Position numbers and translations under genes: made by a program. A DNA stretch of 64,000 nt, from NCBI RefSeq assembly GCF_039645565.1, contig NZ_CP147914.1:1113573-1177572 (forward strand). Reading direction: 5' to 3'. Source of the stretch: Sulfurimonas sp. HSL1-2. GTDB lineage: Bacteria > Campylobacterota > Campylobacteria > Campylobacterales > Sulfurimonadaceae. A model generated the notes under the pieces. The model was not told the DNA's origin and did no database searches. It worked only from the letters and a program-made list of their open reading frames with translations. Of the stretch, positions 5,410-58,700 are shown piece by piece; the stretch's first letter is position 1, and the number at the start of each line of letters is the position of its first letter.

Positions 5410-8001
5410 ATGATGATCACGGGCGGCGGTGCTCCCGACCAGATCCAGCTCTCCCTGGGCGAACAGTACGAAAACGAGAAACTCATCATCGATTTCGACT
5501 CCGGCAAGCCGCTGCATGACGGCAAACCGGTGGTCCGCCTTTATATGGAAGGCGACAGCCTCAAGATGGCGAACGGTTTCCCGATGACCTACCTCAAGAT
5601 GGATGACCAGAGCAGCGGCGCGGTCGCCCCGTCCCTGGAGAACAACGCGTCGACGCGCACGCTCTATACGACGGAGAACGGCGCGAACTTCGTCGTCCGC
5701 AGCTTCCTGGCCAAAGGGAAGAAGACCGTCGTCTCCCAGGAGGCGAAAAAGAGCGGCCCGATGATGCGCAGCGCCACGCAGGACGCGATGCGCCTGCAGT
5801 TCAGCGACGGCAGCGAAACCAAAGAGGTCGTGATCATGGGTACGTCCGGCCAGGTCGGCGTCCCGGAGCCGCTGACGCTCTCGGGCATCCCGATGTCGGT
5901 CAGCTACGGCGCCGAACTGATCCGCCTGCCGTTCGCCCTGAAACTGACGGACTTCGAACTCGACCGCTACCCGGGGTCACAGTCGCCGATGTCCTATGCG
6001 AGCGAGGTCGTCCTGATCGACAAGGAGCAGAACATCGAAATGCCTTACCGCATCTTTATGAACCACGTACTTGACCACCGCAACTACCGTTTCTTCCAGT
6101 CCTCGTACGACCGCGACGAGAAGGGAACCGTCCTCTCCGTCAACCATGACCCGGGAACCCTGCCGACCTATATCGGCTACTTCCTGCTGGCCGTGGGGAT
6201 GTTCGGTGCGCTCTTTGCCAAAGGAGGGCGTTTCCGTCAGCTGGGCAAGATCGCCAAGCGTGCCGCCGAAGCGAAAGAGAAGCTTGCCGCCGCCTTCGTC
6301 GCGGCGCTGCTGATCGCGTTCGCCCCGCAAAACGCCAAGGCCGATACGAACCCGATGATCAAGGAGATCACCTCCTTTGACCGTACCCATGCCGATATGT
6401 TCGGGGCGCTGGTCGTCCAGGACAGCAACGGGCGGATGAAGCCGGTGGACACGCTCAGTACGGAGATCCTGCACAAGATCAACCGCGGCGACACCATTCT
6501 GGGCCTCAATCCCAACCAGATCCTGCTGTCGATGATGCTGATGCCCGAAGCGTGGCGCGACATCAAGATGATCCGCAGCGACAAGCTCGTCAACAAGGAG
6601 CTGGGAATCGACGCCGGTGAGAAAACGCTCGCCTTCAACCAGTTCTTCGAATACCCCGAGGAGCTGGCCGGCTACAAACTCAACAAGTACGTCGAAGAGG
6701 CGATCCGCAAGGCCCCGGGCAAACGCGACAAGTTCGACAAGGCCGTCATCAAGGTCGACGAACGCGTGAACGTCGCCTATATGGTCTATACGGGTGCGCT
6801 GCTGCGCCTCTGGCCGGATGCGGCGGACACGAACCATAAATGGGTGGCCACCATCGATGCGATCAACGGCTTCACGCCGCAGGAGAGCATGGTGGTCCGC
6901 TACCTCGCGGCGCAGTACTTCTCTGCCATCGACGACGCGGTCAAAAGCGGCGACTGGGGCAAGGCGGACGCCGCCCTGGCACAGATCACCGAGCACCAGA
7001 AAAAGGCGGGTGCGCTCGTTTACCCGGATGAGAGCAAGATGAAGCTGGAGATCTGGTACAACCACGCCAACATCTTCGAGCGCCTCTGGCCGCTCTACTT
7101 CCTCGTCGGTTTCGTGCTGCTGGTCTTCGCGTTCGCGCACATCATCAACCCGCGTGTCAAGCTGGGCCTCTTTGCCAAAGGGGCCTACGGTCTGCTGGTA
7201 CTCTTTTTCCTCGCCCATACGGTCGGCCTGGCGATCCGCTGGTACATCTCCGGGCATGCGCCGTGGTCCAACGGCTACGAGTCGATGATCTATATCGGCT
7301 GGGCGTCGGTGCTGGCGGGCTTCATCTTCTCGAAGAATTCGCCGATTACCCTTGCGGCAACCTCCATCCTGGCCGGGCTGATCCTCTTCGTCGCCCACCT
7401 CAACTGGATGGACCCGCAGGTGACGAACCTCGTCCCGGTCCTGCAGTCGTACTGGCTGAGCATCCACGTTTCCATGATTACCGGCAGCTACGGCTTCCTG
7501 GGGCTGGGGGCACTGCTGGGCTTCATTACGCTGATCCTTTTCATGTTCAACTCGGGCAAACGCTCCAAGAGCATCTCGCTCTCCATCAGGGAACTCAATG
7601 CCATCAACGAGATGAGCCTGATGGTCGGTCTGGCGACGCTGACGGTCGGGAACTTCCTCGGCGGTGTCTGGGCCAACGAGAGCTGGGGCCGCTACTGGGG
7701 CTGGGACCCGAAAGAGACCTGGGCGCTGGTGACGATCCTTGTCTACGCGGTCGTTATCCACCTGCGCTTTATCAAGAAGATCTATACGCCGTACCTCTTC
7801 AGCGTCATTTCGCTGCTTGCGTTTACATCGGTCCTGATGACCTATTTCGGCGTCAACTACTACCTGGCGGGGATGCACTCCTACGCCAAAGGCGACCCGG
7901 TGCCGATCCCGGATTTCGTTCCGGTGACCTACGCGATCGTCTTCGCGGTCATTGCACTGGCGGCCCGCCACCGCAAGCTGGCGCCGCTGGATGCGGAGTA
8001 G
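5410..8001 (+). CDS. ccsBA: Cytochrome c assembly protein CcsBA, remaining ResB part and CcsA domain
   Basis: This is the larger part of the same gene, open from 5311 to 8001 without a clear start of its own; the ATG at 5410 is only the first in frame and has no ribosome site. It holds the rest of the periplasmic ResB domain, a transmembrane helix (GYFLLAVGMFGALF), a second periplasmic region, and a C-terminal multi-helix CcsA domain. CcsA shows the haem-handling WWD-type segment WGRYWGWDPKETW and conserved histidines in LFVAHLNW, LSIHVSMITGSYG and YAVVIHLRF. With the upstream fragment the protein would be near 1,050 residues, the normal size for the fused Campylobacterota CcsBA. Confidence 0.88.
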   Translation: MMITGGGAPDQIQLSLGEQYENEKLIIDFDSGKPLHDGKPVVRLYMEGDSLKMANGFPMTYLKMDDQSSGAVAPSLENNASTRTLYTTENGANFVVRSFLAKGKKTVVSQEAKKSGPMMRSATQDAMRLQFSDGSETKEVVIMGTSGQVGVPEPLTLSGIPMSVSYGAELIRLPFALKLTDFELDRYPGSQSPMSYASEVVLIDKEQNIEMPYRIFMNHVLDHRNYRFFQSSYDRDEKGTVLSVNHDPGTLPTYIGYFLLAVGMFGALFAKGGRFRQLGKIAKRAAEAKEKLAAAFVAALLIAFAPQNAKADTNPMIKEITSFDRTHADMFGALVVQDSNGRMKPVDTLSTEILHKINRGDTILGLNPNQILLSMMLMPEAWRDIKMIRSDKLVNKELGIDAGEKTLAFNQFFEYPEELAGYKLNKYVEEAIRKAPGKRDKFDKAVIKVDERVNVAYMVYTGALLRLWPDAADTNHKWVATIDAINGFTPQESMVVRYLAAQYFSAIDDAVKSGDWGKADAALAQITEHQKKAGALVYPDESKMKLEIWYNHANIFERLWPLYFLVGFVLLVFAFAHIINPRVKLGLFAKGAYGLLVLFFLAHTVGLAIRWYISGHAPWSNGYESMIYIGWASVLAGFIFSKNSPITLAATSILAGLILFVAHLNWMDPQVTNLVPVLQSYWLSIHVSMITGSYGFLGLGALLGFITLILFMFNSGKRSKSISLSIRELNAINEMSLMVGLATLTVGNFLGGVWANESWGRYWGWDPKETWALVTILVYAVVIHLRFIKKIYTPYLFSVISLLAFTSVLMTYFGVNYYLAGMHSYAKGDPVPIPDFVPVTYAIVFAVIALAARHRKLAPLDAE

Positions 8002-43946: not shown

Positions 43947-43976
43947 GAGGTTGTCAAACCTCACCACTGTCATAAT
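43947..43976 (+). promoter_or_regulatory. Promoter region with inverted repeat for the guanidine operon
   Basis: CATAAT at 43971-43976 would be the -10 box, giving a transcript starting near 43983, the first bases of the riboswitch. Just upstream, GAGGTT (43947-43952) and AACCTC (43957-43962) form an inverted repeat overlapping the -35 zone. The same hexamers recur inside the riboswitch region. Confidence 0.45.
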
Positions 43977-43980
43977 AGAC

Positions 43981-44079
43981 GGCTAGGGTTCCGGCGGGTT
44001 ACCGTGTCTGGTCCGAGAGCTGTCGACCTCTTGAGTAGAGGTTACACGGAGGGATAAAAGCCCGGGAGGTTTCAACCTC
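43981..44079 (+). ncRNA. Guanidine-I riboswitch (ykkC-yxkD leader)
   Basis: The conserved blocks of the guanidine-I aptamer occur in order: CTAGGGTTCCG (43983-43993), CTGGTCCGAGAG (44008-44019), then ACACGG-A-GGGATAAAAGCCCGGGAG (from about 44044). Variable stems fall between, such as CCTC-TTGAGTA-GAGG. This RNA binds guanidinium and turns on downstream genes. The end of the aptamer runs into GAGGT-TTCA-ACCTC, which may be part of the expression platform. The gene downstream encodes the substrate-binding protein of an importer, the usual location for this class. AGGAG (44107-44111) precedes the ATG. Confidence 0.95.
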
Positions 44080-44117: not shown

Positions 44118-45188
44118 ATGAAATCTATTTTCAAATCTACCTCAAAACTCTTAGTTGCCGCTACACTGGTCATGGGCTTCGGAGCCTCCTCGCTGATGGC
44201 GGAAGTCAAAGATAAGTTTCAGGTCTCCTGGACGATCTATGTCGGATGGATGCCGTGGGATTATGCCCAGCAAAAAGGGATCATCGACAAGTGGGCCAAG
44301 AAATACGGCATCGAGATCGAAATGGTCCAGGTCAACGACTACATCGAATCAATCAACCAATATACTGCAGGAAAATTTGACGGCTGTCTGATGACAAACA
44401 TGGATGCCCTCACGATCCCGGCTGCGGGCGGCGTCGACTCTACGGCGGTCATCATGGGTGACTACTCCAACGGGAACGACGGTATCCTCCTCAAAAACAA
44501 GAAAAACCTGACTGACATCAAAGGCCAGACGGTCAACCTCGTCGAACTTTCCGTCTCTCACTACCTGCTGGCACGTGCACTTGAAACGGTCGGCATGAGC
44601 GAAAAAGACGTCAAGGTCCTCAACACTTCCGACGCCGACATGGTCGCGGCATGGGGGACGAAAGACGTGACTGCAATGACGACTTGGAACCCGCAGCTCA
44701 GCGAGATCATGGCCGGCAATAAAGATGCGAACCTCGTTTTTGACTCCAGCAAGACGCCGGGCGAAATCATCGACATGCTCGTCATCAACACTGAAACGCT
44801 CAAAGACAACCCGAAACTTGCCAAAGCGCTGACGGGTGCATGGTTCGAAGTTATGGCACTGATGAAGAAGGGCGATGAAGCGGCACTGACGTTCATGGCA
44901 CAGGCTTCCGGTACGGACCTCGCAGGCTACAAGAGCCAGCTTGACTCCACGATGATGTTCTACACGCCCTCTGACCTGCTTGCCTTTACGACGAGCGCGG
45001 AAATCCCGGCGACAATGAAAAAAGTCAGCGAGTTCTCCTTTGAGCACGGTATCCTCGGTGAAGGTGCCCCTGACGCCGAGTTCATCGGTATGGCGTTCCC
45101 GGGCGGCAAAACGTTCGGTGATCCGAAAAACATCAAGCTCCGCTTCGACGACACCTTTGTCAAAATGGCCGCCGAAGGGAAACTGTAA
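44118..45188 (+). CDS. ABC transporter substrate-binding protein, guanidine/urea type
   Basis: A 356-residue periplasmic protein with a signal peptide (MKSIFKSTSKLLVAATLVMG to about residue 28), of the NitT/TauT-like family annotated as putative urea ABC transporter binding protein. The ligand pocket region contains VSWTIYVGWMPWDYAQQKG with three Trp residues, apt for a planar cation. It directly follows the guanidine-I riboswitch, so guanidine or a guanidine derivative is the likely ligand. AGGAG precedes the ATG. The permease gene starts nine bases later. Confidence 0.9.
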   Translation: MKSIFKSTSKLLVAATLVMGFGASSLMAEVKDKFQVSWTIYVGWMPWDYAQQKGIIDKWAKKYGIEIEMVQVNDYIESINQYTAGKFDGCLMTNMDALTIPAAGGVDSTAVIMGDYSNGNDGILLKNKKNLTDIKGQTVNLVELSVSHYLLARALETVGMSEKDVKVLNTSDADMVAAWGTKDVTAMTTWNPQLSEIMAGNKDANLVFDSSKTPGEIIDMLVINTETLKDNPKLAKALTGAWFEVMALMKKGDEAALTFMAQASGTDLAGYKSQLDSTMMFYTPSDLLAFTTSAEIPATMKKVSEFSFEHGILGEGAPDAEFIGMAFPGGKTFGDPKNIKLRFDDTFVKMAAEGKL

Positions 45189-45197
45189 GGTCCTCTT

Positions 45198-46022
45198 ATG
45201 AAACGATTAATGAACCTCAGACCGTCGAAGCAGTCCCTCTTTTTCCTGGGACTGCTGCCGTTCGTCCTGGTCGCGCTCTTCTACCTTGGAGCGTCGGAAG
45301 TCCGCCTGGCGGCCAATCCGGACGACAAACTGCTGCCCTCCATGAGCAGCTTTGCCGAGGCGATCGACCGTATGGCACTCACACCGAGCAAACGGACCGG
45401 CGAATACCTCTTTGTCGAGGATACGGTCTCTTCGCTCGAGCGCCTGGGTCTCGGGGTACTCATCAGTGCCGTGCTTGCACTGCTGATGGGGATCCCGCTG
45501 GGGTTCATTCCCTTCGTTCGTGCAGGACTTTCGCCCTTCGTCGCGGCCTTCTCCATGGTGCCGCCAATGGCTATTTTGCCCATCTTATTCATCATATTCG
45601 GCATGGGTGAGCTGGCTAAAGTAGCACTGATCGTCATCGGGGTGACCCCGCTGATCGTCCGCGACCTGCAGCAGCGGGTCATGGAGATCCCGGTCGAGCA
45701 GCTCATCAAGGCGCAGACCCTGGGCGGAACGTCATGGAGCATCGTGCTGCGCGTCGTGCTGCCGCAGATCTTCCCGCGGCTGCTCGATGCGGTGCGCCTC
45801 ACGATGGGAACGGCGTGGATCTTCCTGATCTCCGCCGAGGCGATTTCGGCCACCGAAGGGCTGGGGTACCGGATCTTCCTGGTACGCCGCTACCTGTCGA
45901 TGGATGTGATCCTGCCGTATGTCGCCTGGATCACCTTCCTCGCCTTCTTATTTGATTACCTGCTCAAGCGGTTCACCTACAAGGTGTTCCCGTGGTATGA
46001 CGCAGGGAAGGAGCAGTCATGA
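45198..46022 (+). CDS. ABC transporter permease, guanidine/urea type
   Basis: A 274-residue permease of the NitT/TauT (SsuC/TauC-like) class with about six helices. The cytoplasmic EAA loop is seen near residues 170-190 (KAQTLGGTSWSIVLRVVLPQ). A periplasmic stretch (about 40-80) contains acidic residues. It forms the channel with the binding protein upstream and the ATPase, whose ATG overlaps its stop by four bases. Confidence 0.92.
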   Translation: MKRLMNLRPSKQSLFFLGLLPFVLVALFYLGASEVRLAANPDDKLLPSMSSFAEAIDRMALTPSKRTGEYLFVEDTVSSLERLGLGVLISAVLALLMGIPLGFIPFVRAGLSPFVAAFSMVPPMAILPILFIIFGMGELAKVALIVIGVTPLIVRDLQQRVMEIPVEQLIKAQTLGGTSWSIVLRVVLPQIFPRLLDAVRLTMGTAWIFLISAEAISATEGLGYRIFLVRRYLSMDVILPYVAWITFLAFLFDYLLKRFTYKVFPWYDAGKEQS

Positions 46023-46783
46023 GCCTCGTCACCGTCAAAAACCTCTGGAAAGAGTACGGCGACAACGTCGTACTGGAGAACATGAGCCTGAACATCGAAG
46101 CGGGCGAATTCTGTACGCTCGTCGGACCGTCGGGTTGCGGGAAAACAACCTTTCTGAAGATGCTGCTGGGACAGGAAAACCCGACGCGCGGCACCTTTCT
46201 GCTCGAGGGGAAACCCTTCCCGGAAGAGCCGGGTGTAGACCGCGGGATCGTTTTCCAGCGCTATTCAGTCTTTTCGCACCTGAGCGTGCTGAAAAACGTC
46301 ATGCTGGGGATCGAGTTTGAAAAAGCCCCGCTGATGGGCCGCCTTTTCGGCCAGGCCCGCAAGGAGGCCGAAGCCGAAGCGATGGCGATGCTCGAAGCCG
46401 TCGGCCTCGGCGACGCGGCGCACAAGTACCCCAGCGAACTCTCCGGGGGGATGCAGCAGCGCCTCTCCATTGCGCAGTCTCTGGTCAAAAAACCGAAGAT
46501 CCTACTGCTGGACGAACCGTTCGGCGCCCTCGACCCGGGGATCCGTGCCGATATGCACGCGCTGATCCTCGACCTGTGGAAGAAGAACAACCTTACCGTC
46601 GTCATGGTGACCCATGACCTGCACGAGGGGTTCTACCTCGGCACGCGTCTGCTGGTCTTCGACAAGGTCCGCCACGACCCGCAGGCCCCCAACGCCTACG
46701 GTGCGCGCATCACCTACGATATCCCCGTCGGGGATACGCGCGACTCCGTGCTCAAAGAGATCGACCAGACCTTCAAGGTCTGA
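46019..46783 (+). CDS. ABC transporter ATP-binding protein, guanidine/urea type
   Basis: A 254-residue ATPase. Walker A is GPSGCGKTT (36-44), signature LSGGMQQRLSIAQ, Walker B ILLLDEPFGALDPG and the H-loop VMVTHDL. It powers the importer. The C-terminus (about 215-250) is slightly extended and carries DIPVGDTRDSVLKEID. It is the last gene before the first guanidine-II riboswitch; 92 bases separate it from the next start. Confidence 0.95.
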   Translation: MSLVTVKNLWKEYGDNVVLENMSLNIEAGEFCTLVGPSGCGKTTFLKMLLGQENPTRGTFLLEGKPFPEEPGVDRGIVFQRYSVFSHLSVLKNVMLGIEFEKAPLMGRLFGQARKEAEAEAMAMLEAVGLGDAAHKYPSELSGGMQQRLSIAQSLVKKPKILLLDEPFGALDPGIRADMHALILDLWKKNNLTVVMVTHDLHEGFYLGTRLLVFDKVRHDPQAPNAYGARITYDIPVGDTRDSVLKEIDQTFKV

Positions 46784-46812: not shown

Positions 46813-46855
46813 GCCGCAGGACGACCTGCGGCATCGCGACGTCCGGGACGGCCCG
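46813..46855 (+). ncRNA. Guanidine-II riboswitch (mini-ykkC), copy 1
   Basis: Two stem-loops with ACGR tetraloops, the signature of the class: P1 GCCGCAGG (46813-46820), loop ACGA, CCTGCGGC (46825-46832); P2 CGGG (46844-46847), loop ACGG, CCCG (46852-46855). The linker is 11 bases. The GAAGGAG ribosome site (46864-46870) of the DUF1989 gene follows by eight bases, so control of translation is likely. Copy 2 at 50167 shares both loops. Confidence 0.92.
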
Positions 46856-46875: not shown

Positions 46876-47613
46876 GTGATAACTGAACACGAAAACCTGA
46901 AACCAGAATCCATCATCCTCGACGAGGTGCTCCCGGGCGGTGCGCGCTGGTCGAAGATCATCAAACGCGGCGACAAGCTGCGCATCACGACCAAGGACGG
47001 GCTGGGCACGCTCAGCGCGATGTTCTACAACGCCGATAACACCGCGGAGCGTTTCAACTCCGCCGACACGGTCAAACTTCAGCACAATGCCTACTTCTGC
47101 AAAGGGCGGGTCTTCTATTCCGAGCAGGGACGCGTCCTGCTCTCCATTACGGAAGATACGACTGAAGGTCTCTTCGATGCCATCGGCGGCATCAGCAACC
47201 CGCGCATCGTCGCGAAAAACTTCGGCGAGGGTGACTTCGAGCATATCCGCAACCGTTATTACAAAAGCGACCGCGAAAACTTCCTCGTCGAACTGGGCAA
47301 ATACGGCATGGGCAAACGCGACATGATCCAGGCAATCAACTTCTTCAGACGGGTCGACGTCAAAGAGGGCAACAAGCTGGCACTTTCCGAAAGACGTCCG
47401 CAGCCTTTGAGTTACATCGAGCTGCGTGCGGAGATGAACGTCCTGCTGGTGCTCTCCAACACGCCGCATGTCATGGAAACGGGAACATACAACCCCAGCG
47501 ACGTCCAGCTGACGCTGTTTAAAGCGGCCCCGGTCACCGAAGATGATTACTGCATGAACTTCAGTATCCAGTCCAAACGTGCGTTCCAGAACAACGCACG
47601 CTATTTTGCCTGA
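46876..47613 (+). CDS. DUF1989 protein, carboxyguanidine deiminase subunit (urea carboxylase-associated protein 1)
   Basis: A 245-residue DUF1989 protein, of the type long annotated as urea carboxylase-associated and more recently shown to form a deiminase with its partner that converts carboxyguanidine to allophanate and ammonia (CgdAB). The core contains GGARWSKIIKRGDKLRITT, FYNADNTAERFNSADT and ELRAEMNVLLVLSNTPH, the DUF1989 pattern. GTG start at 46876, five bases after GAAGGAG. Directly under a guanidine-II riboswitch. Eleven bases to its partner gene. Confidence 0.9.
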   Translation: MITEHENLKPESIILDEVLPGGARWSKIIKRGDKLRITTKDGLGTLSAMFYNADNTAERFNSADTVKLQHNAYFCKGRVFYSEQGRVLLSITEDTTEGLFDAIGGISNPRIVAKNFGEGDFEHIRNRYYKSDRENFLVELGKYGMGKRDMIQAINFFRRVDVKEGNKLALSERRPQPLSYIELRAEMNVLLVLSNTPHVMETGTYNPSDVQLTLFKAAPVTEDDYCMNFSIQSKRAFQNNARYFA

Positions 47614-47623
47614 GGAGCGCGTG

Positions 47624-48244
47624 ATGAAAAGAGATATCGAAACAGCCGTTTACAACCACAAACTGCCGGCGGGCGTGCCGTGGAGCTACGTCGTGAAAAA
47701 AGGCCAGACGCTGCGTATCGTCGACCTTGAGGGGTGCCAGGCCGTCGACACGCTGTTTTACAATGCCAATGATCACGAAGAGCGCTACTCTGCCAACGAT
47801 ACGATCCGCGAACAGGGGAGCATCTTCGTTACGACGGGTACCCAGCTGATCTCCACCGACGACAACGTCATGATGACGATCACCGACGATACCTGCGGCA
47901 ACCACGATACCCTGGGCGGCCACTGCAGCGCGGAGAGCAACACCGTGCGCTACGGCCACAATACGAAGTACATGCACAGCTGCCGCGACAACTACCTGTT
48001 CGAGATCGGCGAGCGCGAGATGGACCCGCGCGACCTCACGAACAACATCAACTTCTTCATGAACGTGCCGATCGAGGAGAACGGTTTCCTGATCATCGTC
48101 GACGGGATCTCCAAACCGGGAGACTACGTCGATATGAAAGCGGAGATGGACACGCTGGTGCTGATCTCGAACTGCCCGCAGCTCAACAACCCGTGCAACG
48201 CGTTCAACCCGACGCCGATCCAGCTGATCGTCTGGGACGACTGA
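47624..48244 (+). CDS. DUF1989 protein, carboxyguanidine deiminase subunit (urea carboxylase-associated protein 2)
   Basis: A 206-residue DUF1989 protein, the partner of the one above. It keeps the probable metal site: ADTLFYNANDHEERYSAND, DDTCGNHDTLGGHCSAES with Cys and two His, and MHSCRDNYLFE; in the first subunit these Cys/His residues are absent, so this subunit is probably catalytic and the other structural. That is an inference from residues only. GAGGAG lies six bases before the ATG at 47624. Confidence 0.9.
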   Translation: MKRDIETAVYNHKLPAGVPWSYVVKKGQTLRIVDLEGCQAVDTLFYNANDHEERYSANDTIREQGSIFVTTGTQLISTDDNVMMTITDDTCGNHDTLGGHCSAESNTVRYGHNTKYMHSCRDNYLFEIGEREMDPRDLTNNINFFMNVPIEENGFLIIVDGISKPGDYVDMKAEMDTLVLISNCPQLNNPCNAFNPTPIQLIVWDD

Positions 48245-48248
48245 GACG

Positions 48249-49262
48249 ATGAAAAAGACGACACGGCTTCTGCGCTTCGAAGATGCATGGCTGCCGAACC
48301 TGGCGGCATGGGCCTATATGCTCGGCGCCTACGTGGGCGGTTTTGCCGCCATCATGGCCGACGCGCTGTGGCTCAACGCCGCCGGGGTGCTTCTGCTGGC
48401 ACACGGCATGGTCATCGCCGCGTACTTTATCCACGAGTGCGCCCACGATTCACTCTTCAGGCTGCCGATCAACAACCACCGTTTCGGAGAGGTATTGCTC
48501 TGGATCTGCGGCGCGTCGTACAGTGATTACGAGGCGATACGGATGAAGCATGTCCGCCATCACTTGGACCGTGCCGATGTCGTCTCGTTCGATTTCCGCA
48601 CCCGCCTGCCCCACTACCCGAAACTGCTCAAGACGATCCAGGTTTTGGAGTGGTTCTACATTCCCGCCCTCGAGATCATGATGCACGCCCTGGTCGTGAT
48701 TCTTCCGTTCATGAAGGAGAGCCGCCGCTATCTTCGCCGCCGCGTCGTTACGGTACTCGTGCTGCGCATCGCTTTCTTTGCCGCACTGGCGTCGATTGCG
48801 CCGAAAGTGTTGCTGCTCTACCCGTTGGCGTACATGATCTTCCTGACGGTCATGCGTTTCATGGACGTGCATCAGCACACCTATGACGTGCATGAAACGC
48901 TGGATTTTTCGCGCGAAGCGCAAGTGAAACAGTATGACCGCGCCTTCGAATCGCGCAACACCTATTCGAACCTGTTTTCTGAAAAATACCCGTGGCTGAA
49001 CCTGCTGGTTCTCAATTTCGCGTACCACAACGTTCACCACGATCAGCAGATCCAGCCGTGGTACCGGCTGCCGGGGCTGCATGCCAAGCTCTACGGCGAC
49101 GACAGGACGCAGGTCCTGATGTTCTCCGACCTGGCGCGCAGCTACCACCGCTACCGTGTCGCGCGGGTCCTCAACGGGGACCCGGCCGACCTTGACGTCA
49201 GGCACGACGGGGGCCGCACCTTTATCGGGGTGGACGGCGTCTCGTTCCTGACGGCGCACTGA
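48249..49262 (+). CDS. Membrane di-iron fatty acid desaturase-family protein
   Basis: A 337-residue membrane protein of the desaturase/hydroxylase superfamily. Its three histidine boxes are complete: HECAH (62-66), HVRHH (101-105) and HNVHH (260-264), with extra histidines in DVHQHTYDVHE (208-215). At least four hydrophobic helices surround them. Relatives desaturate acyl chains or hydroxylate alkanes and other small molecules using O2. Nothing in guanidine degradation needs it, yet it lies four bases after the deiminase gene, inside the riboswitch-controlled unit. It could oxidise a substituted guanidine to release guanidine, or modify lipid. Function unknown. Confidence 0.82.
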   Translation: MKKTTRLLRFEDAWLPNLAAWAYMLGAYVGGFAAIMADALWLNAAGVLLLAHGMVIAAYFIHECAHDSLFRLPINNHRFGEVLLWICGASYSDYEAIRMKHVRHHLDRADVVSFDFRTRLPHYPKLLKTIQVLEWFYIPALEIMMHALVVILPFMKESRRYLRRRVVTVLVLRIAFFAALASIAPKVLLLYPLAYMIFLTVMRFMDVHQHTYDVHETLDFSREAQVKQYDRAFESRNTYSNLFSEKYPWLNLLVLNFAYHNVHHDQQIQPWYRLPGLHAKLYGDDRTQVLMFSDLARSYHRYRVARVLNGDPADLDVRHDGGRTFIGVDGVSFLTAH

Positions 49263-49272
49263 AGGAGTCAAC

Positions 49273-50055
49273 ATGACCCAGGTAAAGAAGTTCTGGCCCA
49301 TTCTCACCGGCACCCACCGCTATGAAAAAACCCTTTCGACGCGGGGACATGGACAGGGAATCATCATAACTGCTCCAATTTTAAGCTATTTGATCGAAAC
49401 AGCCCACGGTCGGATACTGTATGATGTCGGCTGTGACTACTCCAAGATCGCCGACGACGTGAAACGCAAAAAGTTTTACGAGCACGAGGGGTTTCCCTTC
49501 GGGCCGCCGACGATGGAGGAGGAGCAGCGTCTTCCCAACCGCCTGGCCGAACTGGGATTGCAAGCGGAGGATATCGACGTCGTCTTCTGCGGCCACCTTC
49601 ACTTTGACCATGCGGGCGGGGTGTGTGAGTTCTGTGGTGCCGAGGTGCACGTACACGAGAAAGAGCTCGAAGCGGCCAACGCGCTGGCGGACGAAGCCTA
49701 TTTCAAAGAGGATTTCGACTGCCCGGTCAACTGGCGCGTCTATAAGGGCGATTACGACCTCGTCCCCGGTGTGCGCGCCATCGAGACCCCCGGCCATACG
49801 GCCGGGCACATGTCGATGATGATCGAACTGCCCAAAGGGCCCCCGATCCTGCTCTGCGGCGACGCGGCCGACCTGCAGGAGAATCTCGAACAGGAGATCG
49901 TCCCGGGGCTGTGTTGGCAGGATCGTGAAGACATGGCGCTTGACAGTATCAAGAAACTCAAACACCTCGCAAAGGAGACGGGGGCCGAACTGTGGCCCAA
50001 CCACGATATCAAGTTCTTCGAAAGCAAGAACCGCTTTCCGCGGTTCTTTCATTGA
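49273..50055 (+). CDS. Metallo-beta-lactamase-fold hydrolase, N-acyl-homoserine-lactonase-like
   Basis: A 260-residue MBL-fold enzyme with the zinc motif GHLHFDHAGG (His108, His110, Asp112, His113) and further ligands in TPGHTAGHMS and LCGDAADL. Overall resemblance is to AHL lactonase-like hydrolases (AttM/AiiA group), which open lactone rings. The substrate here is unknown. The gene starts 10 bases after the desaturase-family gene and is the last before an intrinsic terminator, so the two probably work together. Confidence 0.85.
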   Translation: MTQVKKFWPILTGTHRYEKTLSTRGHGQGIIITAPILSYLIETAHGRILYDVGCDYSKIADDVKRKKFYEHEGFPFGPPTMEEEQRLPNRLAELGLQAEDIDVVFCGHLHFDHAGGVCEFCGAEVHVHEKELEAANALADEAYFKEDFDCPVNWRVYKGDYDLVPGVRAIETPGHTAGHMSMMIELPKGPPILLCGDAADLQENLEQEIVPGLCWQDREDMALDSIKKLKHLAKETGAELWPNHDIKFFESKNRFPRFFH

Positions 50056-50111
50056 GAACGTGTCTTGAGCAAAGCCCAAAACACTACGCTGGCCACTAAG
50101 GCGCTAAAGCT

Positions 50112-50137
50112 TGCCCCTGTGGGGCAGAAACATTTTT
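50112..50137 (+). terminator. Intrinsic terminator between the two halves of the guanidine locus
   Basis: TGCCCC (50112-50117), TGT loop, GGGGCA (50121-50126) followed by GAAACATTTTTT. It lies 57 bases after the MBL gene stop and 30 bases before guanidine-II copy 2, so the carboxylase part likely has its own promoter or depends on read-through. No clear -10 box was seen in 50138-50166. Confidence 0.6.
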
Positions 50138-50166
50138 TACTCACGCTTTGGGGTGCGCAACCTCAT

Positions 50167-50209
50167 CTGTGCTGGACGACCTGCACAGGTATCCGAACGG
50201 GACGGCCCG
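50167..50209 (+). ncRNA. Guanidine-II riboswitch (mini-ykkC), copy 2
   Basis: P1: CTGTGC (50167-50172), a T-T mismatch, GG, loop ACGA (50176-50179), CC and GCACAG (50183-50188). P2: CGGG (50198-50201), loop ACGG, CCCG (50206-50209). The loops and the P2 stem are identical to copy 1, while P1 sequence differs but keeps pairing, as expected for a real RNA. The ribosome site GAGGAAGAG and the carboxylase ATG (50233) follow. Confidence 0.92.
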
Positions 50210-50232
50210 AAACCTGAACCTGAGGAAGAGCT

Positions 50233-53200
50233 ATGTTTAAAAAAGTTTTGATTGCCAATCGTGGTGAGATCGCCTGCCGCGTTATCCGTACTCTCAAACA
50301 GATGGGAATCGGCTCCGTCGCCGTCTATACGGGTGCCGATACCGACTCCCTCCACGTCAGCCTTGCCGACGAAGCCTACTACATCGGTCACGGCGTTGCC
50401 AGCGAGAGCTACCTCGACGCTGCCAAGATCCTTGACATTGCGAAGCAGAGCGGCGCCGAAGCGGTCCACCCCGGCTACGGTTTTCTGAGCGAAAACGCGG
50501 CGTTTGCCAGCGCCTGCGAAGCGGCGGGGATCGCCTTTATCGGTCCGCGCACGGAGCACATGGAGAAGTTCGGTCTCAAGCACACGGCCCGCGCCCTGGC
50601 CGAGGCGAACAACGTTCCCCTCCTGCCGGGCTCCTCGCTGCTGGCCGACCTGGACGAAGCGAAAAGTGAAGCGGTGCGCATCGGCTACCCGGTCATGCTT
50701 AAAAGTACCGCCGGCGGCGGCGGGATCGGGATGCAGCTCTGTTTTGACGAAGTGCAGCTGCTGAGTGCTTACGACTCCGTCAAGCGCCTCAGCGAAAACA
50801 ACTTCTCTGATGGCGGGATGTTCCTGGAAAAATACGTTGCACATGCGCGCCACATCGAAGTACAGGTCTTCGGGGACGGCGAGGGCTTCGTCGCGACGCT
50901 GGGCGACCGCGACTGTTCCGTCCAGCGCCGCAACCAGAAGGTGATCGAGGAGACCCCGGCCCCCGGGATTTCCGACGAAACGCGTCAGGCCCTCTACAAG
51001 GCAGCGCAAGAGCTGACGGCCTCCGTATCCTACCGTTCCGCCGGGACGGTCGAGTTCGTCTACGACACCGACAGCGGCGAATTTTACTTCCTCGAGGTCA
51101 ACACCCGCCTGCAGGTCGAGCACGGTATTACCGAAGAGGTCACCGGCGTTGACCTCGTCGAGTGGATGATCCGCACGGCTGCCGGCGAGAACCCGGCGCT
51201 CTATGACTACGCCCACAACCCGCAGGGCCACGCCATCCAGGTACGCGTCTACGCCGAAGACCCGATGAAGAACTTCCAGCCCAGCTCCGGCGTGCTGACG
51301 AACGTCGCCTTCGCCGATGGGATCCGCTGCGACACCTTTATCGAAACGGGGCTCGAAGTCTCCTCCTTCTACGACCCGATGATCGCCAAGCTCATCGTCA
51401 AGGGCAACGACCGCAGCGACGCGCTTGCCAAGATCGGCGCTGCCATTGGCGGCACCCGCATTGACGGCATCGAGACGAACCTCCGTTACCTCGGGGCCAT
51501 CGTCGCCTCCGAGGTCTTTGTACAGGGCAAACAGACGACGAAGTACCTCGACGGCTTCAGCTTTACCCCCAGGAGCATCGACGTCCTGCGTCCGGGAACT
51601 CAGACGACGATCCAGGACTACCCTGGCCGCAGCGGCTACTGGGACATCGGTGTCCCGCCATCGGGTCCATTTGACAGCTTCAGTTTCCGCTACGCCAACC
51701 GGCTTGTCGGCAACAGCGAAGCGGCGGCGGGCCTCGAGATCGCCATCGCCGGGCCGACACTGCGCTTCAACACCGACAGCGTCGTCGCGCTCTGCGGCGC
51801 ACAGATCGACGCATTTATCGACAACGAACCGGTCGCGATGAACGAGGCACTCCCGGTCAAAGCGGGCAGCGTGCTCAAACTGAAAAAAGTCCACAACGAA
51901 GGGTTCCGCACCTACCTGGCCGTGCGCGGCGGGTTCGACGTTCCCGAGTACCTCGGCAGCCGCTCGACCTTTACCCTGGGGCAGTTCGGCGGTCACGCGG
52001 GACGTACCCTCGTTCCGGGTGACGTCCTGCACATCGATACGATGACGGAGGGCGACGCGGCCGTAGCCCCGGCAGAGCCGCGCAACGGGCTGGCGAATAC
52101 CTGGGAGATCGGCGTGCTCTACGGACCGCACGGCGCCCCGGACTTCTTCACGGATGACGATATCGAGACCTTCTTTGCGACGGAGTGGGAGATCCACTAC
52201 AACTCCAACCGTACGGGTATCCGCCTCATCGGCCCCAAACCACAGTGGGCGCGTACAGACGGCGGCGAGGCGGGGCTGCACCCCTCCAACATCCACGACA
52301 ACGCCTACGCGATCGGCGCCGTGGACTTCACCGGCGACATGCCGGTCATCCTCGGCCCCGACGGCCCGAGCCTCGGCGGTTTCGTCTGCCCGGTGACGAT
52401 CGTCAGCGCCGAGCTCTGGAAGATGGGGCAGCTGCGCGCGGGTGACAAGGTGAAATTCGTCCCGGTCGAACATGACACGGCGATGGCGATGCTCAAAGCG
52501 CAGGAAGAGGCGATTGCAACCCTCTCAACCTACGACGAACGCCCCTTCCTAGACCCCAAACCGATCGGTTCGCCGATCCTCTTCGCCGATGAGGCGAAGG
52601 GCGACCTTCCGGCCATGGTCATCCGCCAGTCCGGCGACGCGAACCTTCTCGTCGAGTATGGCGAGATGCAGCTTGACATCGAGCTGCGCTTCCGCGCCCA
52701 TGTACTGATGGAGGCGATGAAGGAGGAGGCCTTCGAGGGCGTCACCGACATCACTCCGGGCATCCGCTCGCTGCAGGTGCATTTCGACCCGAAGGTCTGC
52801 GACCGCGCGGCGCTCATTGAACGCCTCAAAGAGATCGAGCTGACCCTGCCGTCCATCGACGACATCGAGGTGCCGGCGCGCGTCGTACACCTGCCGCTCT
52901 CCTGGGATGATGAATCGACCCGCGTCGCCATCGACAAGTATATGAAGACGGTCCGTCCCGACGCGCCGTGGTGTCCTTCGAACATCGAGTTCATCCGCCG
53001 TATCAATGGTCTGGACTCCATCGACGAGGTCAAGAAGATCGTCTTCGGCGCCAACTACCTCGTCATGGGCCTTGGTGACGTTTACCTTGGAGCCCCTGTT
53101 GCGACGCCGCTCGACCCGCGCCACCGCCTGGTTACGACCAAGTACAACCCGGCGCGGACCTGGACCCCGGAAAACGCCGTCGGTATCGGCGGGGCCTATA

Positions 53201-53835
53201 TGTGTGTCTACGGGATGGAAGGTCCCGGCGGCTACCAGTTCGTCGGCCGTACGGTACAGATGTGGAACCGCCACCGCCAGACTCAGGACTTCAAAGAGGG
53301 CAAGCCGTGGCTGCTGCGCTTCTTTGACCAGATCAAGTTCTACGAGGTGAGTGCCGAAGAGCTGCACAAGATGCGCGAGGATTTCCCGCGCGGCCGGATG
53401 AAGCTCGACGTCGAAGAGACGACCTTCAGCCTCAAGGCGTATAAAGATTTCCTCGCCGAAAACGAGACGAGCATCAAGACCTTCAAAACGACCCAGCAGG
53501 CCGCCTTCGACGAAGAGCGCGCGATGTGGGAACGCACGGGGCTGGCGAACTTTACCTCTGAAAGCGGCGAAGTGAAAGCAGAGACGATGGAAATCATTGA
53601 GCTCGGCGAACACGACGAAGCGGTCGAGTCCCCGGTGCAGGGGAGCCTCTGGAAGGTAATGGCGAAGCTCGGCGACACGGTCGAGGAGGGCGAAGTGCTT
53701 GCCATCGCCGAATCGATGAAGATGGAAGTTGACATCGAGGCCCCCGAAGCGGGCAAGATCGTCAAGGTGCTCTGCCACGAGGGCGAGAGCGTGCATGCGG
53801 GCAAGATGCTCTTCGTCATCGAACCGCAGGCGTAG
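50233..53835 (+). CDS. Biotin-dependent guanidine/urea carboxylase
   Basis: A 1,200-residue single-chain carboxylase. Order: biotin carboxylase (1 to about 445; start [21 protein letters not shown]-grasp with [12 protein letters not shown], and [13 protein letters not shown]), KipA/AHS2-like part (about 455-760; [20 protein letters not shown]), KipI/AHS1-like part (about 765-990), and a C-terminal biotin carrier domain with biotinyl Lys1163 in AESMKMEV. It carboxylates guanidine, or urea, with bicarbonate and ATP. Context (riboswitches, DUF1989 pair) favours guanidine. It lacks the allophanate hydrolase domain of fungal urea amidolyase, which is encoded separately downstream. Confidence 0.93.
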
Positions 53836-55590: not shown

Positions 55591-56922
55591 ATGACGATTT
55601 CACAACTTTTGAACGACTATAAAAGCGGTACAACGACCCCGCGCGAAGTGATGGCACAGATACGTGCGCTTATCGCGGAGCATGCGGAAAACCCTATTTT
55701 CATCCATGCGCTGAGCGAGGCGGAGACCGAACCTTACCTCGAGCGCCTTGAAAGGGTGAGTCCTGGTTCCCTGCCGCTCTACGGCGTCCCCTTTGCGATC
55801 AAGGACAACATCGACCTCGCCGGGGTCCCGACGACGGCGGCCTGTCCGGCCTACCGCTACGTTCCGGAAGCCTCCGCTTTCGTTGTCGAACGGCTGATCG
55901 AAGCGGGGGCGATCCCCGTGGGCAAAGCCAACCTCGACCAGTTTGCGACGGGGCTTGTGGGGACGCGTTCGCCTTATGGGGCCTGCCGCAACAGTATCGA
56001 TCCTTCCTATATCTCCGGAGGCTCCAGTTCCGGGAGTGCCGTCAGCGTCGCGCTGGAAATGGCGGCCTTCTCCCTGGGAACGGATACGGCGGGATCGGGC
56101 CGCGTACCGGCGGCCTTTAACAACCTCGTGGGGGTCAAGCCCTCCAAGGGGGTTCTGAGCACCTCCGGTGTCGTGCCGGCGTGCCGCAGCCTCGATTGTG
56201 TCTCAATCTTTGCCCTCAACACCGATGACGCGCAGGCTGTCTTTGATGTCGCCTGCGCCTTTGACGCCGCAGACCCTTACAGCCGTAAGATGCCGGAGAC
56301 AGCGGGTGCAGTGGAAAAAACGATGCGTTTTGCCGTGCCGCTGCCGTCCCAGCTGAAGTTCTTCGGGGACAGCGAGGCAGAAGCACTCTTCAGCGCCGCA
56401 GCGGCACGTTTCGAATCTATGGGGTATACGGCGATAGAAACCGATTTCTCGCCGATGCTCGACGCGGCAAATCTGCTCTATTCTGGTCCCTGGGTCGCGG
56501 AGCGCTATATTGCGGCCAAGCAGATCATGGACGAGCAGCCCGAAGAAGTGCTGGAGGTTACCCGTTCGATCATTGAGCAGGGTCGTGAGAAGAGCGCGGT
56601 GGACTATTTTGCCGCCGAGTACCGGCTCAAGGAGTACAAACGGCAGTCCGAGCTTGTACTCGAGGGGATGGATTTCGCGCTGACACCGACGACGGGAACC
56701 ATCTACACCATCGAAGCGGTCAATGCCGACCCGGTGCAGCTCAATACGAACCTCGGCTACTACACGAACTTCATGAACCTGCTTGATTTCTCGGCCTATG
56801 CCGTGCCGGCCGGTTTCCGCAGCAACGGATTACCGTTCGGCGTCACGCTGTTTGGTGATGCCTTTGAGGACCGCCGTCTGATGGAGATCGGCAAAGCGTA
56901 CGTGGAGGTGTCCCGTGGCTGA
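55591..56922 (+). CDS. atzF: Allophanate hydrolase, amidase part
   Basis: A 443-residue amidase-signature enzyme. The Ser-cisSer-Lys triad is visible: Lys71 in FAIKDNIDLAG, the SGGSSSGSA stretch (142-150), and nucleophile Ser169 in GTDTAGSGRVPA. In the AtzF family the substrate is allophanate, and the TAGSGR sequence and length fit. The usual fused C-terminal domain is missing and is encoded as the next gene, whose GTG start overlaps this stop by eight bases. Release of the final ammonia from allophanate completes the guanidine pathway. Confidence 0.9.
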   Translation: MTISQLLNDYKSGTTTPREVMAQIRALIAEHAENPIFIHALSEAETEPYLERLERVSPGSLPLYGVPFAIKDNIDLAGVPTTAACPAYRYVPEASAFVVERLIEAGAIPVGKANLDQFATGLVGTRSPYGACRNSIDPSYISGGSSSGSAVSVALEMAAFSLGTDTAGSGRVPAAFNNLVGVKPSKGVLSTSGVVPACRSLDCVSIFALNTDDAQAVFDVACAFDAADPYSRKMPETAGAVEKTMRFAVPLPSQLKFFGDSEAEALFSAAAARFESMGYTAIETDFSPMLDAANLLYSGPWVAERYIAAKQIMDEQPEEVLEVTRSIIEQGREKSAVDYFAAEYRLKEYKRQSELVLEGMDFALTPTTGTIYTIEAVNADPVQLNTNLGYYTNFMNLLDFSAYAVPAGFRSNGLPFGVTLFGDAFEDRRLMEIGKAYVEVSRG

Positions 56923-57313
56923 GACGATTAAGATCGCCGTCTGCGGTGCGCATATGCGCGGGCTGCCGCTCAATCACCAGCTGACTGCACTGGATGCAAC
57001 CTTTGTCACTGCGACGAAAACGGCCAAAGGGTACCGCCTTTACGACGTGCCTGATAAGGTGCCGCCGCGTCCGGGGATGGTGCGCGACAGCGCAGCGCAG
57101 AGTGCCGTGACACTCGAGGTCTGGTCGATGCCGCTGGAACACTTCGGCGCTTTTATGGTCCAGATCGCTTCGCCGCTCTGTATCGGCACCGTGCTGCTTG
57201 AAGACGGTAGTGCCGTTTACGGCTTTTTATGCGAGTCGGATGCCCTCAAGGGTGCCGCGGAGATCACCGCCTTCGGCGGCTGGCGGGAGTACCTCGCTTC
57301 AAAGCAGGGCTGA
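56915..57313 (+). CDS. Allophanate hydrolase C-terminal domain as separate protein
   Basis: A 132-residue protein matching the C-terminal domain of AtzF-type allophanate hydrolase, a gamma-glutamylcyclotransferase-like fold: IAVCGAHMRGLPLNHQL at the start and VLLEDGSAVYGFLCESDAL near the end. In the fused enzymes this domain decarboxylates N-carboxycarbamate made by the amidase. Here it starts on a GTG inside the end of the amidase gene, so the pair is coupled. The 172 bases after it hold an inverted repeat and the porin promoter. Confidence 0.88.
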   Translation: MAETIKIAVCGAHMRGLPLNHQLTALDATFVTATKTAKGYRLYDVPDKVPPRPGMVRDSAAQSAVTLEVWSMPLEHFGAFMVQIASPLCIGTVLLEDGSAVYGFLCESDALKGAAEITAFGGWREYLASKQG

Positions 57314-57485: not shown

Positions 57486-58700
57486 ATGAAAATGACAAAA
57501 ATGAGTTTGATGGCAGCACTGCTCCTGGGAAGCAGCGCTTTTGCATTTGAAAATACAGAAGTGGGCGGGGATGCACGTTTCTTCTATTCGACTTTTGACG
57601 GTCACGGTGCCGATCTTTTCGGTAAGGCGACAAGCACTGCTGACTTCGGTGGCCGCCTGAGCATTACGACGGATATCGATGAGATCCTCTCCGCCGGTGC
57701 GACAGGGTATGCCGTCAGTACGCTGGGCCTTGATAAAGAGATTGCCAACAACGTATGGTCCGGTGCGCATATTGACAATGCGACAGGTGATTTTTATACG
57801 ACGACCGGCTGGATCGGCGAAGCGTGGCTCTCTGCAAAACTGGGCAACACAGTCGCAAAAGCGGGCCGCATGGAACTCGATACGCCGCTGCTCTTTACGG
57901 AAACGTGGGGTATTACAGCGAACAACTTTGAAGCGGCGACGATCACCAATACGGATATCCCGGGTACGACGCTTGTCGGCGCATGGGTCGCGACAGGAAA
58001 CGGTTACTCCCAGTTCCTGCTGACAGATACGAAAGGTGAGTTCACAACCATCGGTGACCAGGGTGCGATCGCTGTCGGTGCGATCAACAACTCATTTGAA
58101 CCGCTGACGGCACAGGCGTGGTACTACGAACTGCCGGACACCGCGACGGCCTACTGGCTGCAGGCTGACCTCTCCATCGCCGGTATTGTCGCAGGTCTGC
58201 AGTATACGGACATCAACCCGAACGAGCTCATCTCCACGGCAGACGACTCCACGGCATTTGCGGCAAAACTGGGTTACGAAGGTGTCGAGAACCTCGGTAT
58301 CTATGCATCCTACTCTACCACGGATAAGGACGGTGACCAGTATATCGGGAACATCGCAACCGCACCTGGCGAAGGGTGGGGTATGCAGTCCAAGCTCTAC
58401 ACGGAAGCGTGGTGGAACTTCGGTTACGTCGGTCTGCCGGGTACGGATGCCTACAATGTCACAGCGACCTACAGCCTGCCTGAAATCGCCGATCTCGGAC
58501 TCTTCTACACGAACATCGACACCGATGGCGGAGCAGGTCTGACCTATTTTAAAAACAAGGTAAGCGAAGTCACCTTTACCGCGGCAAAATCGTTCGGCAA
58601 GCTTGATGCGCTCTTCGCGTATATCTATGCGGACGATGACGCTATCAACGACGGCGACGCCTACAACACGCTGCAGCTCTACCTCGTCTACAACTTCTAA
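57486..58700 (+). CDS. Outer-membrane porin-like beta-barrel protein
   Basis: A 404-residue protein with signal peptide (MSLMAALLLGSSAFAFE), a mature part of alternating hydrophobic strands with Gly/Asp/Thr turns, and an aromatic last residue (LQLYLVYNF), the outer-membrane barrel assembly signal. It resembles the Campylobacterota porin family (OprD-like). Substrate unknown. It lies directly downstream of the guanidine genes but across an AT-rich 172-base gap with its own promoter region, so it may belong to the locus (guanidine entry) or be a general porin. Confidence 0.82.
   Translation: MKMTKMSLMAALLLGSSAFAFENTEVGGDARFFYSTFDGHGADLFGKATSTADFGGRLSITTDIDEILSAGATGYAVSTLGLDKEIANNVWSGAHIDNATGDFYTTTGWIGEAWLSAKLGNTVAKAGRMELDTPLLFTETWGITANNFEAATITNTDIPGTTLVGAWVATGNGYSQFLLTDTKGEFTTIGDQGAIAVGAINNSFEPLTAQAWYYELPDTATAYWLQADLSIAGIVAGLQYTDINPNELISTADDSTAFAAKLGYEGVENLGIYASYSTTDKDGDQYIGNIATAPGEGWGMQSKLYTEAWWNFGYVGLPGTDAYNVTATYSLPEIADLGLFYTNIDTDGGAGLTYFKNKVSEVTFTAAKSFGKLDALFAYIYADDDAINDGDAYNTLQLYLVYNF

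Follow-up and report, generated by a model that had tools for sequence, protein, structure and literature searches.

Guanidine riboswitches in described operons

The loops of Guanidine-II riboswitches kiss on guanidinium binding, and unmasking of the Shine-Dalgarno (SD) sequence is proposed to raise translation, with the linker proposed as the SD mask in E. coli (PMC9300104, PMC7544219). The linker range given for the class is 7–40 nt (PMC7544219). The available text on Vreelandella boliviensis places a Guanidine-I riboswitch at the operon head and a Guanidine-II riboswitch between cgdB and gca; binding was measured, and the KD of the Guanidine-II element was 93 μM for guanidine and 83 μM for methylguanidine (PMC12508155). 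For Raoultella, Erwinia, and Klebsiella, importer and carboxyguanidine deaminase genes are described under Guanidine-I, and carboxylase and allophanate hydrolase genes under Guanidine-II (PMC12186494). Operons headed by Guanidine-I and with Guanidine-II in front of gca are thus already published, from Vreelandella and Enterobacteria.

The window of this study is the whole 64,000-nucleotide stretch of DNA that was analysed, positions 1113573–1177572 of the single-contig 2.52 Mb genome of Sulfurimonas sp. HSL1-2 (G000). It contains the following operon, listed in gene order:

43972–44070, + strand: Guanidine-I riboswitch aptamer, operon head (Rfam RF00442, 91.8 bits)
44118–46783, + strand: three-gene ABC importer (substrate-binding protein, permease, ATPase; Pfam, with TIGR03427 at 555.8 bits on the binding protein)
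46813–46855, + strand: other Guanidine-II riboswitch, copy 1, before cgdA (Rfam RF01068, 41.2 bits)
46879–48244, + strand: cgdA/cgdB (UAAP1, UAAP2; DUF1989), carboxyguanidine deiminase subunits (PF09347; TIGR03425, TIGR03424)
48249–49262, + strand: fatty-acid-desaturase-like membrane protein (PF00487)
49273–50055, + strand: metallo-beta-lactamase (MBL)-fold hydrolase, lactonase-like (PF00753; AiiA-like match under the curated cut-off)
50168–50209, + strand: Guanidine-II riboswitch aptamer, copy 2, before gca (RF01068 match, covariation in 20 leaders)
50233–53835, + strand: gca, guanidine carboxylase with D698 (TIGR02712, 1923.6 bits)
55591–57313, + strand: two genes that together encode allophanate hydrolase, one for the amidase and one for the C-terminal domain (TIGR02713 / NF006043 on both)

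Between gca and the allophanate hydrolase genes lie genes for a TIM-barrel protein and then for a permease that appears, by eye, to be EamA-type. The neighbours of copy 2 are guanidine metabolism genes (importer, cgdAB, gca, and allophanate hydrolase).

The Sulfurimonas operon shares with that of V. boliviensis, as far as the latter is described, Guanidine-I at the head, Guanidine-II directly before gca, the pathway genes, and extra oxidative genes (PMC12508155). Unlike V. boliviensis, it adds a second Guanidine-II before cgdA and has the desaturase-like and MBL genes between cgdB and copy 2; the extra genes encode desaturase-like, MBL, and TIM-barrel proteins here, and MgdH and MgdL there (PMC12508155). 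The division of genes between Guanidine-I and Guanidine-II is the same as in Raoultella, Erwinia, and Klebsiella, but the enterobacterial loci have one Guanidine-II by description and the Sulfurimonas operon has two (PMC12186494). Copy 2 has two ACGR-loop hairpins and a short linker in common with the E. coli sugE/gdx element, as reported; the regulated gene is a carboxylase here and an exporter there, and the linker–SD pairing proposed there is weak here, in nearly all leaders (PMC9300104, PMC7544219).

A survey of tandem riboswitches, in its available text, reports no such arrangement that involves a guanidine class (PMC9481103). Copies 1 and 2 are not tandem in the survey's sense, because each precedes a gene of its own and 3.3 kb separate them. 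A literature search, which covered few subscription papers, found no guanidine riboswitch papers on Campylobacterota, and no description of two Guanidine-II and one Guanidine-I in one operon was found in the literature examined. Copy 2 is a genuine member, conserved in evolution, of a known type of RNA switch and lies in a guanidine-degrading operon. Less ordinary is that one operon carries three guanidine switches, of which two share a class.

Identity and anatomy of the element before gca

A scan of the window against all Rfam families gave three matches above cut-off: Guanidine-I and the two Guanidine-II copies. Copy 2 matched RF01068 with 35.3 bits against a cut-off of 32, and its E-value was 2.2e-5 when the Guanidine-II model was searched against the source genome; copies 1 and 2 were the only Guanidine-II sites above the cut-off in that genome. 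A covariance model search, one check proposed by a sequence-only reading of this DNA, thus bore out its assignment of both copies. That reading had placed the element at 50167–50209; the element is there, but the Rfam match starts one base later, at 50168. The parts of the leader are as follows:

50149–50165, + strand: small hairpin (TGGGGT / ACCTCA) directly 5' of P1, predicted fold
50168–50175 / 50180–50187, + strand: P1, with loop ACGA at 50176–50179 (sequence, Rfam alignment)
50188–50197, + strand: linker, 10 nt (sequence)
50198–50201 / 50206–50209, + strand: P2, with loop ACGG at 50202–50205 (sequence, Rfam alignment)
50222–50226, + strand: GAGGA, the SD sequence of gca and presumed point of control (seen in the sequence; regulation putative)

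Both hairpins carry ACGR loops closed by G-C pairs, and the 10-nt linker is inside the range for the class. Seven of the eight core pairs of P1 form; the exception is pair 3 from the loop, where U50173 faces U50182 in a U.U mismatch that Infernal marks 'v'. P1 can be extended outward by C-G, U-G, and A-U pairs to 50165/50190. The start codon of gca, ATG at 50233, follows the end of copy 2 after 23 nt. In the place matching the 50149–50165 hairpin, copy 1 has a different hairpin.

A two-hairpin descriptor was run on both strands of 737,802 bp of gathered loci. It gave 42 matches, two of them double calls, and thus 40 elements; over 20 passes on block-shuffled loci, the average was 0.0 matches.

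A promoter of its own was sought for copy 2, among sigma-70-like promoters only, and no such site was found in 49700–50300. An 84-bp insertion at 50056–50139, between the MBL gene and copy 2, is missing in the nearest relative, G010 (L069), in which the gap is short (last base of the MBL gene at 6192, first base of the aptamer at 6220). The insertion contains a terminator-like hairpin at 50111–50127, and its core is similar to a low-copy repeat. An exact pattern for this repeat, which the copy in the window does not fit, occurred in 13 of 200 family genomes.

Specificity of the carboxylase

By its NCBIfam name, gca is a urea carboxylase. In an alignment with urea amidolyase of K. lactis (5i8i), D698 of GCA falls opposite N1330. 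A literature search linking N1330 with urea carboxylase found nothing, and it is our assumption that N1330 is the active-site position that discriminates by Asp or Asn. Asp occupied this position in 33 of 34 gca loci, a set that includes the duplicate pair L060/L095 and excludes L077 (gca cut short) and four further duplicates. Guanidine carboxylases are described as having Asp where urea carboxylases have Asn (PMC12186494). The sequence-only claim of a Guanidine-II riboswitch before a carboxylase gene therefore holds on both sides, since the score of copy 2 is above the curated cut-off and the carboxylase carries the expected aspartate. The single Asn was found in L076 (G128), although its operon has Guanidine-I and Guanidine-II.

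Covariation of the stems

The covariation set consisted of 20 distinct leaders before gca. L065, L069, and L071 were dropped as rows identical to L061, the window, and L070, respectively, and L079, L080, L081, L083, and L095 were dropped as duplicate records of the same genomes; L092, L093, L094, and L099 were kept outside the counts. P1 and P2 were aligned apart and ungapped, because a first MAFFT alignment interrupted P1 with a gap in two rows, the window and L078.

In P1, 91.0% of 200 cells were paired, compared with 71.3% under shuffling (0 of 500 shuffles as high). Two-sided changes were found at nine of the ten pairs and in 50 cells (shuffles, 15.5), and the covariation score was 0.685 (shuffles, 0.271). 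Relatedness inflates such counts; slid controls, which retain the relatedness, reached 37.0–53.1% pairing and scores of 0.103–0.201. Loss of P1 pairing in relatives, named beforehand as the outcome that would speak against a functional stem, was not what these leaders displayed. In P2, 95.3% of 64 cells (16 distinct rows) were paired, two-sided changes occurred at two of the four pairs, and the count of further pair types was 2 against 2.9 under shuffles. The two loop-nearest P2 pairs are invariant and therefore provide no test of pairing.

Inverted repeats in intergenic gaps can act as protein-binding DNA palindromes or processing sites. Such a role for these stem-loops in place of a riboswitch is hardly credible, since the ACGR loops were kept in 20 of 20 rows while the stems changed in compensating fashion, and the element matches a validated riboswitch family.

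Comparison of the two Guanidine-II copies

The loops (ACGA/ACGG) and P2 are identical in the two copies, as the sequence-only reading had noticed. It had also described P1 as different yet complementary. This stood for most of the stem: pairs 6–9 from the loop show four Watson-Crick double changes from copy 1 to copy 2 (CG>UA, CG>GC, GC>UA, and UA>CG), and pair 10 changes from GU to UG. It did not stand for pair 3, which is A-U in copy 1 and the U.U mismatch in copy 2. This broken pair and the lower score (35.3 against 41.2 bits) could mark copy 2 as a relic that no longer switches. This is very unlikely, as the loops are intact and the identical aptamer is common to G000 and G010. Moreover, G025 (L073; both copies) and G545 (L092; copy 1) have the mismatch at this very pair, with the outer stem still paired.

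Proposed mechanism and folding analysis

Copy 2 is, with high probability, a Guanidine-II riboswitch in which guanidinium-induced kissing opens the ribosome-binding site of gca. The two hairpins would bind guanidinium as a pair through loop–loop kissing, the ribosome-binding site would become more available, and efficient translation of gca would require guanidine. The Guanidine-I element that heads the operon would gate transcription of the whole unit, and copy 2 would add a local gate on the ATP-using carboxylase. Ligand binding, kissing, and the ON direction are expected by analogy with the literature on other members, and we infer from them that copy 2 itself binds guanidine and how it may free the SD site.

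The SD-freeing step was examined by ensemble folding of 25 leaders. Without ligand, P1 and P2 of copy 2 were already formed (0.99 and 0.86), and forcing them changed SD accessibility from 0.40 to 0.41. Across the leaders, P1 and P2 were mostly preformed and forcing them gave no consistent SD release. The linker as anti-SD, on the E. coli model, was rejected: its pairing was weak in nearly all leaders, with −3.3 kcal/mol here and −6.4 kcal/mol at best (copy 1 of L073). A pyrimidine-rich tract upstream of P1 (here ACCTCA against TGAGG) was also rejected. In 23 of 27 leaders it paired with the SD more strongly than the linker did, yet no better than its own shuffles (mean z −0.19, with 4 of 27 below −1). 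No conserved anti-SD masking pairing was thus predicted in the linker or the upstream tract. ViennaRNA represents neither kissing loops nor co-transcriptional folding, and the folding result therefore neither proves nor excludes masking. The aptamer is firm and the expression platform is not; the release of the SD is put forward as conjecture because folding gave no conserved anti-SD switch.

The absence of a conserved anti-SD partner in the linker or upstream, with the aptamer conserved nonetheless, would also agree with a mechanism lacking alternative SD pairing. Guanidine-induced kissing would then alter RNA compactness, ribosome standby access, or sensitivity to RNase or Rho between the MBL gene and gca. 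This is possible but rather unlikely. SD unmasking is proposed for other Guanidine-II members in the available reports (PMC9300104, PMC7544219, PMC12508155), and the kissing complex lies beyond ViennaRNA modelling.

The desaturase-like gene

The desaturase-like gene was found in 6 of 200 family genomes (E ≤ 1e-20), always within a guanidine operon, and also in G545, outside the family. It is tied to guanidine metabolism by position. The gene is present in all six genomes with two Guanidine-II copies, and G177 has it without copy 1. No solved structure similar by sequence was found for the protein. The analogy to MgdH invites the guess that the protein's substrate is an alkylguanidine; for a new enzyme that releases guanidine, the gene is a specific candidate. 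A wider scheme, doubtful as a whole, would have Guanidine-I gate transcription and the two Guanidine-II copies gate translation of cgdAB, for the second step of the pathway, and of gca, for the first, with the desaturase-like protein a membrane di-iron oxygenase freeing guanidine from an alkylguanidine, and Guanidine-II sensing both precursor and product. The alkylguanidine precursor is suggested because the V. boliviensis Guanidine-II also answers to methylguanidine, as reported (PMC12508155).

Distribution and history

The 39 gca loci, window included, represented 34 distinct genomes after removal of 5 duplicate records. The element stood before gca in 27 of the 34, in a non-random sample in which most loci had been picked for carrying a guanidine riboswitch. 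Among the 27, L078 was missed by the strict descriptor and picked up by the Rfam model at 30.9 bits, under the cut-off. The seven genomes without it were six whose title or genus (g14) points to Sulfuricurvum and one Verrucomicrobia record. In evenly drawn genomes, a Guanidine-II match (E ≤ 0.001) was found in 14 of 200 from the family and 30 of 397 from the phylum. Records close to the operon came from Sulfurimonas, Sulfurospirillum, Arcobacter/Aliarcobacter, and similar. The results add a number of Campylobacterota to the bacteria known to combine Guanidine-I and Guanidine-II in this layout.

Both copies were present in six of the 34 genomes (G000, G010, G027, G036, G025, and G545). The sequence-only reading had called the element before gca the second copy; there are two copies, but the one before gca is the widespread one and that at 46813 the restricted one. 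In the phylum draw, two matches were listed in 5 of 397 genomes, each pair about 3.3 kb apart (G025 is not among the listed matches). In the order around Marinomonas sargassi, 101 of 390 genomes had a match and 23 had two, by a search whose filters lose weak matches. The two lay on one contig in 7 of the 23, never closer than about 95 kb, and on different contigs in 16. As far as sampled, only these relatives seem to have a Guanidine-II pair inside a single operon. Operons of close relatives differ in the number of guanidine sensors, which provides a natural test of the use of sensor repetition.

Copy 1 leaders are alike across all six genomes (71–97% between genomes). Copy 2 leaders are of two kinds: those of G000, G010, and G025 (84–96% among them), and those of G027 and G036 together with G545. 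The latter are 64–72% identical to copy 1 leaders and have a similar upstream hairpin; the former are 60–65% identical to them. A leader duplication, in either direction, with later replacement or conversion would explain the two kinds; the margin in similarity is small.

G545 belongs to another family. Its operon and switches were probably gained by horizontal transfer, the simplest reading, because its GCA is 92% identical to that of the window (59–86% in the window's family outside its genus) but its Tgt is 73% identical, the lowest among ten genomes compared.

Two further arrangements were observed. In L096, L097, and L098 (family f7), Guanidine-II stands before a short gene whose start presumably resembles those of SMR-type guanidine exporters. 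In L072, L074, L075, and L080, the operon is closely preceded by a porin gene with a further Guanidine-I in front of it, which suggests guanidine-controlled outer-membrane uptake. The window's gene related to that porin lies 3' of the operon, at 57486–58700.
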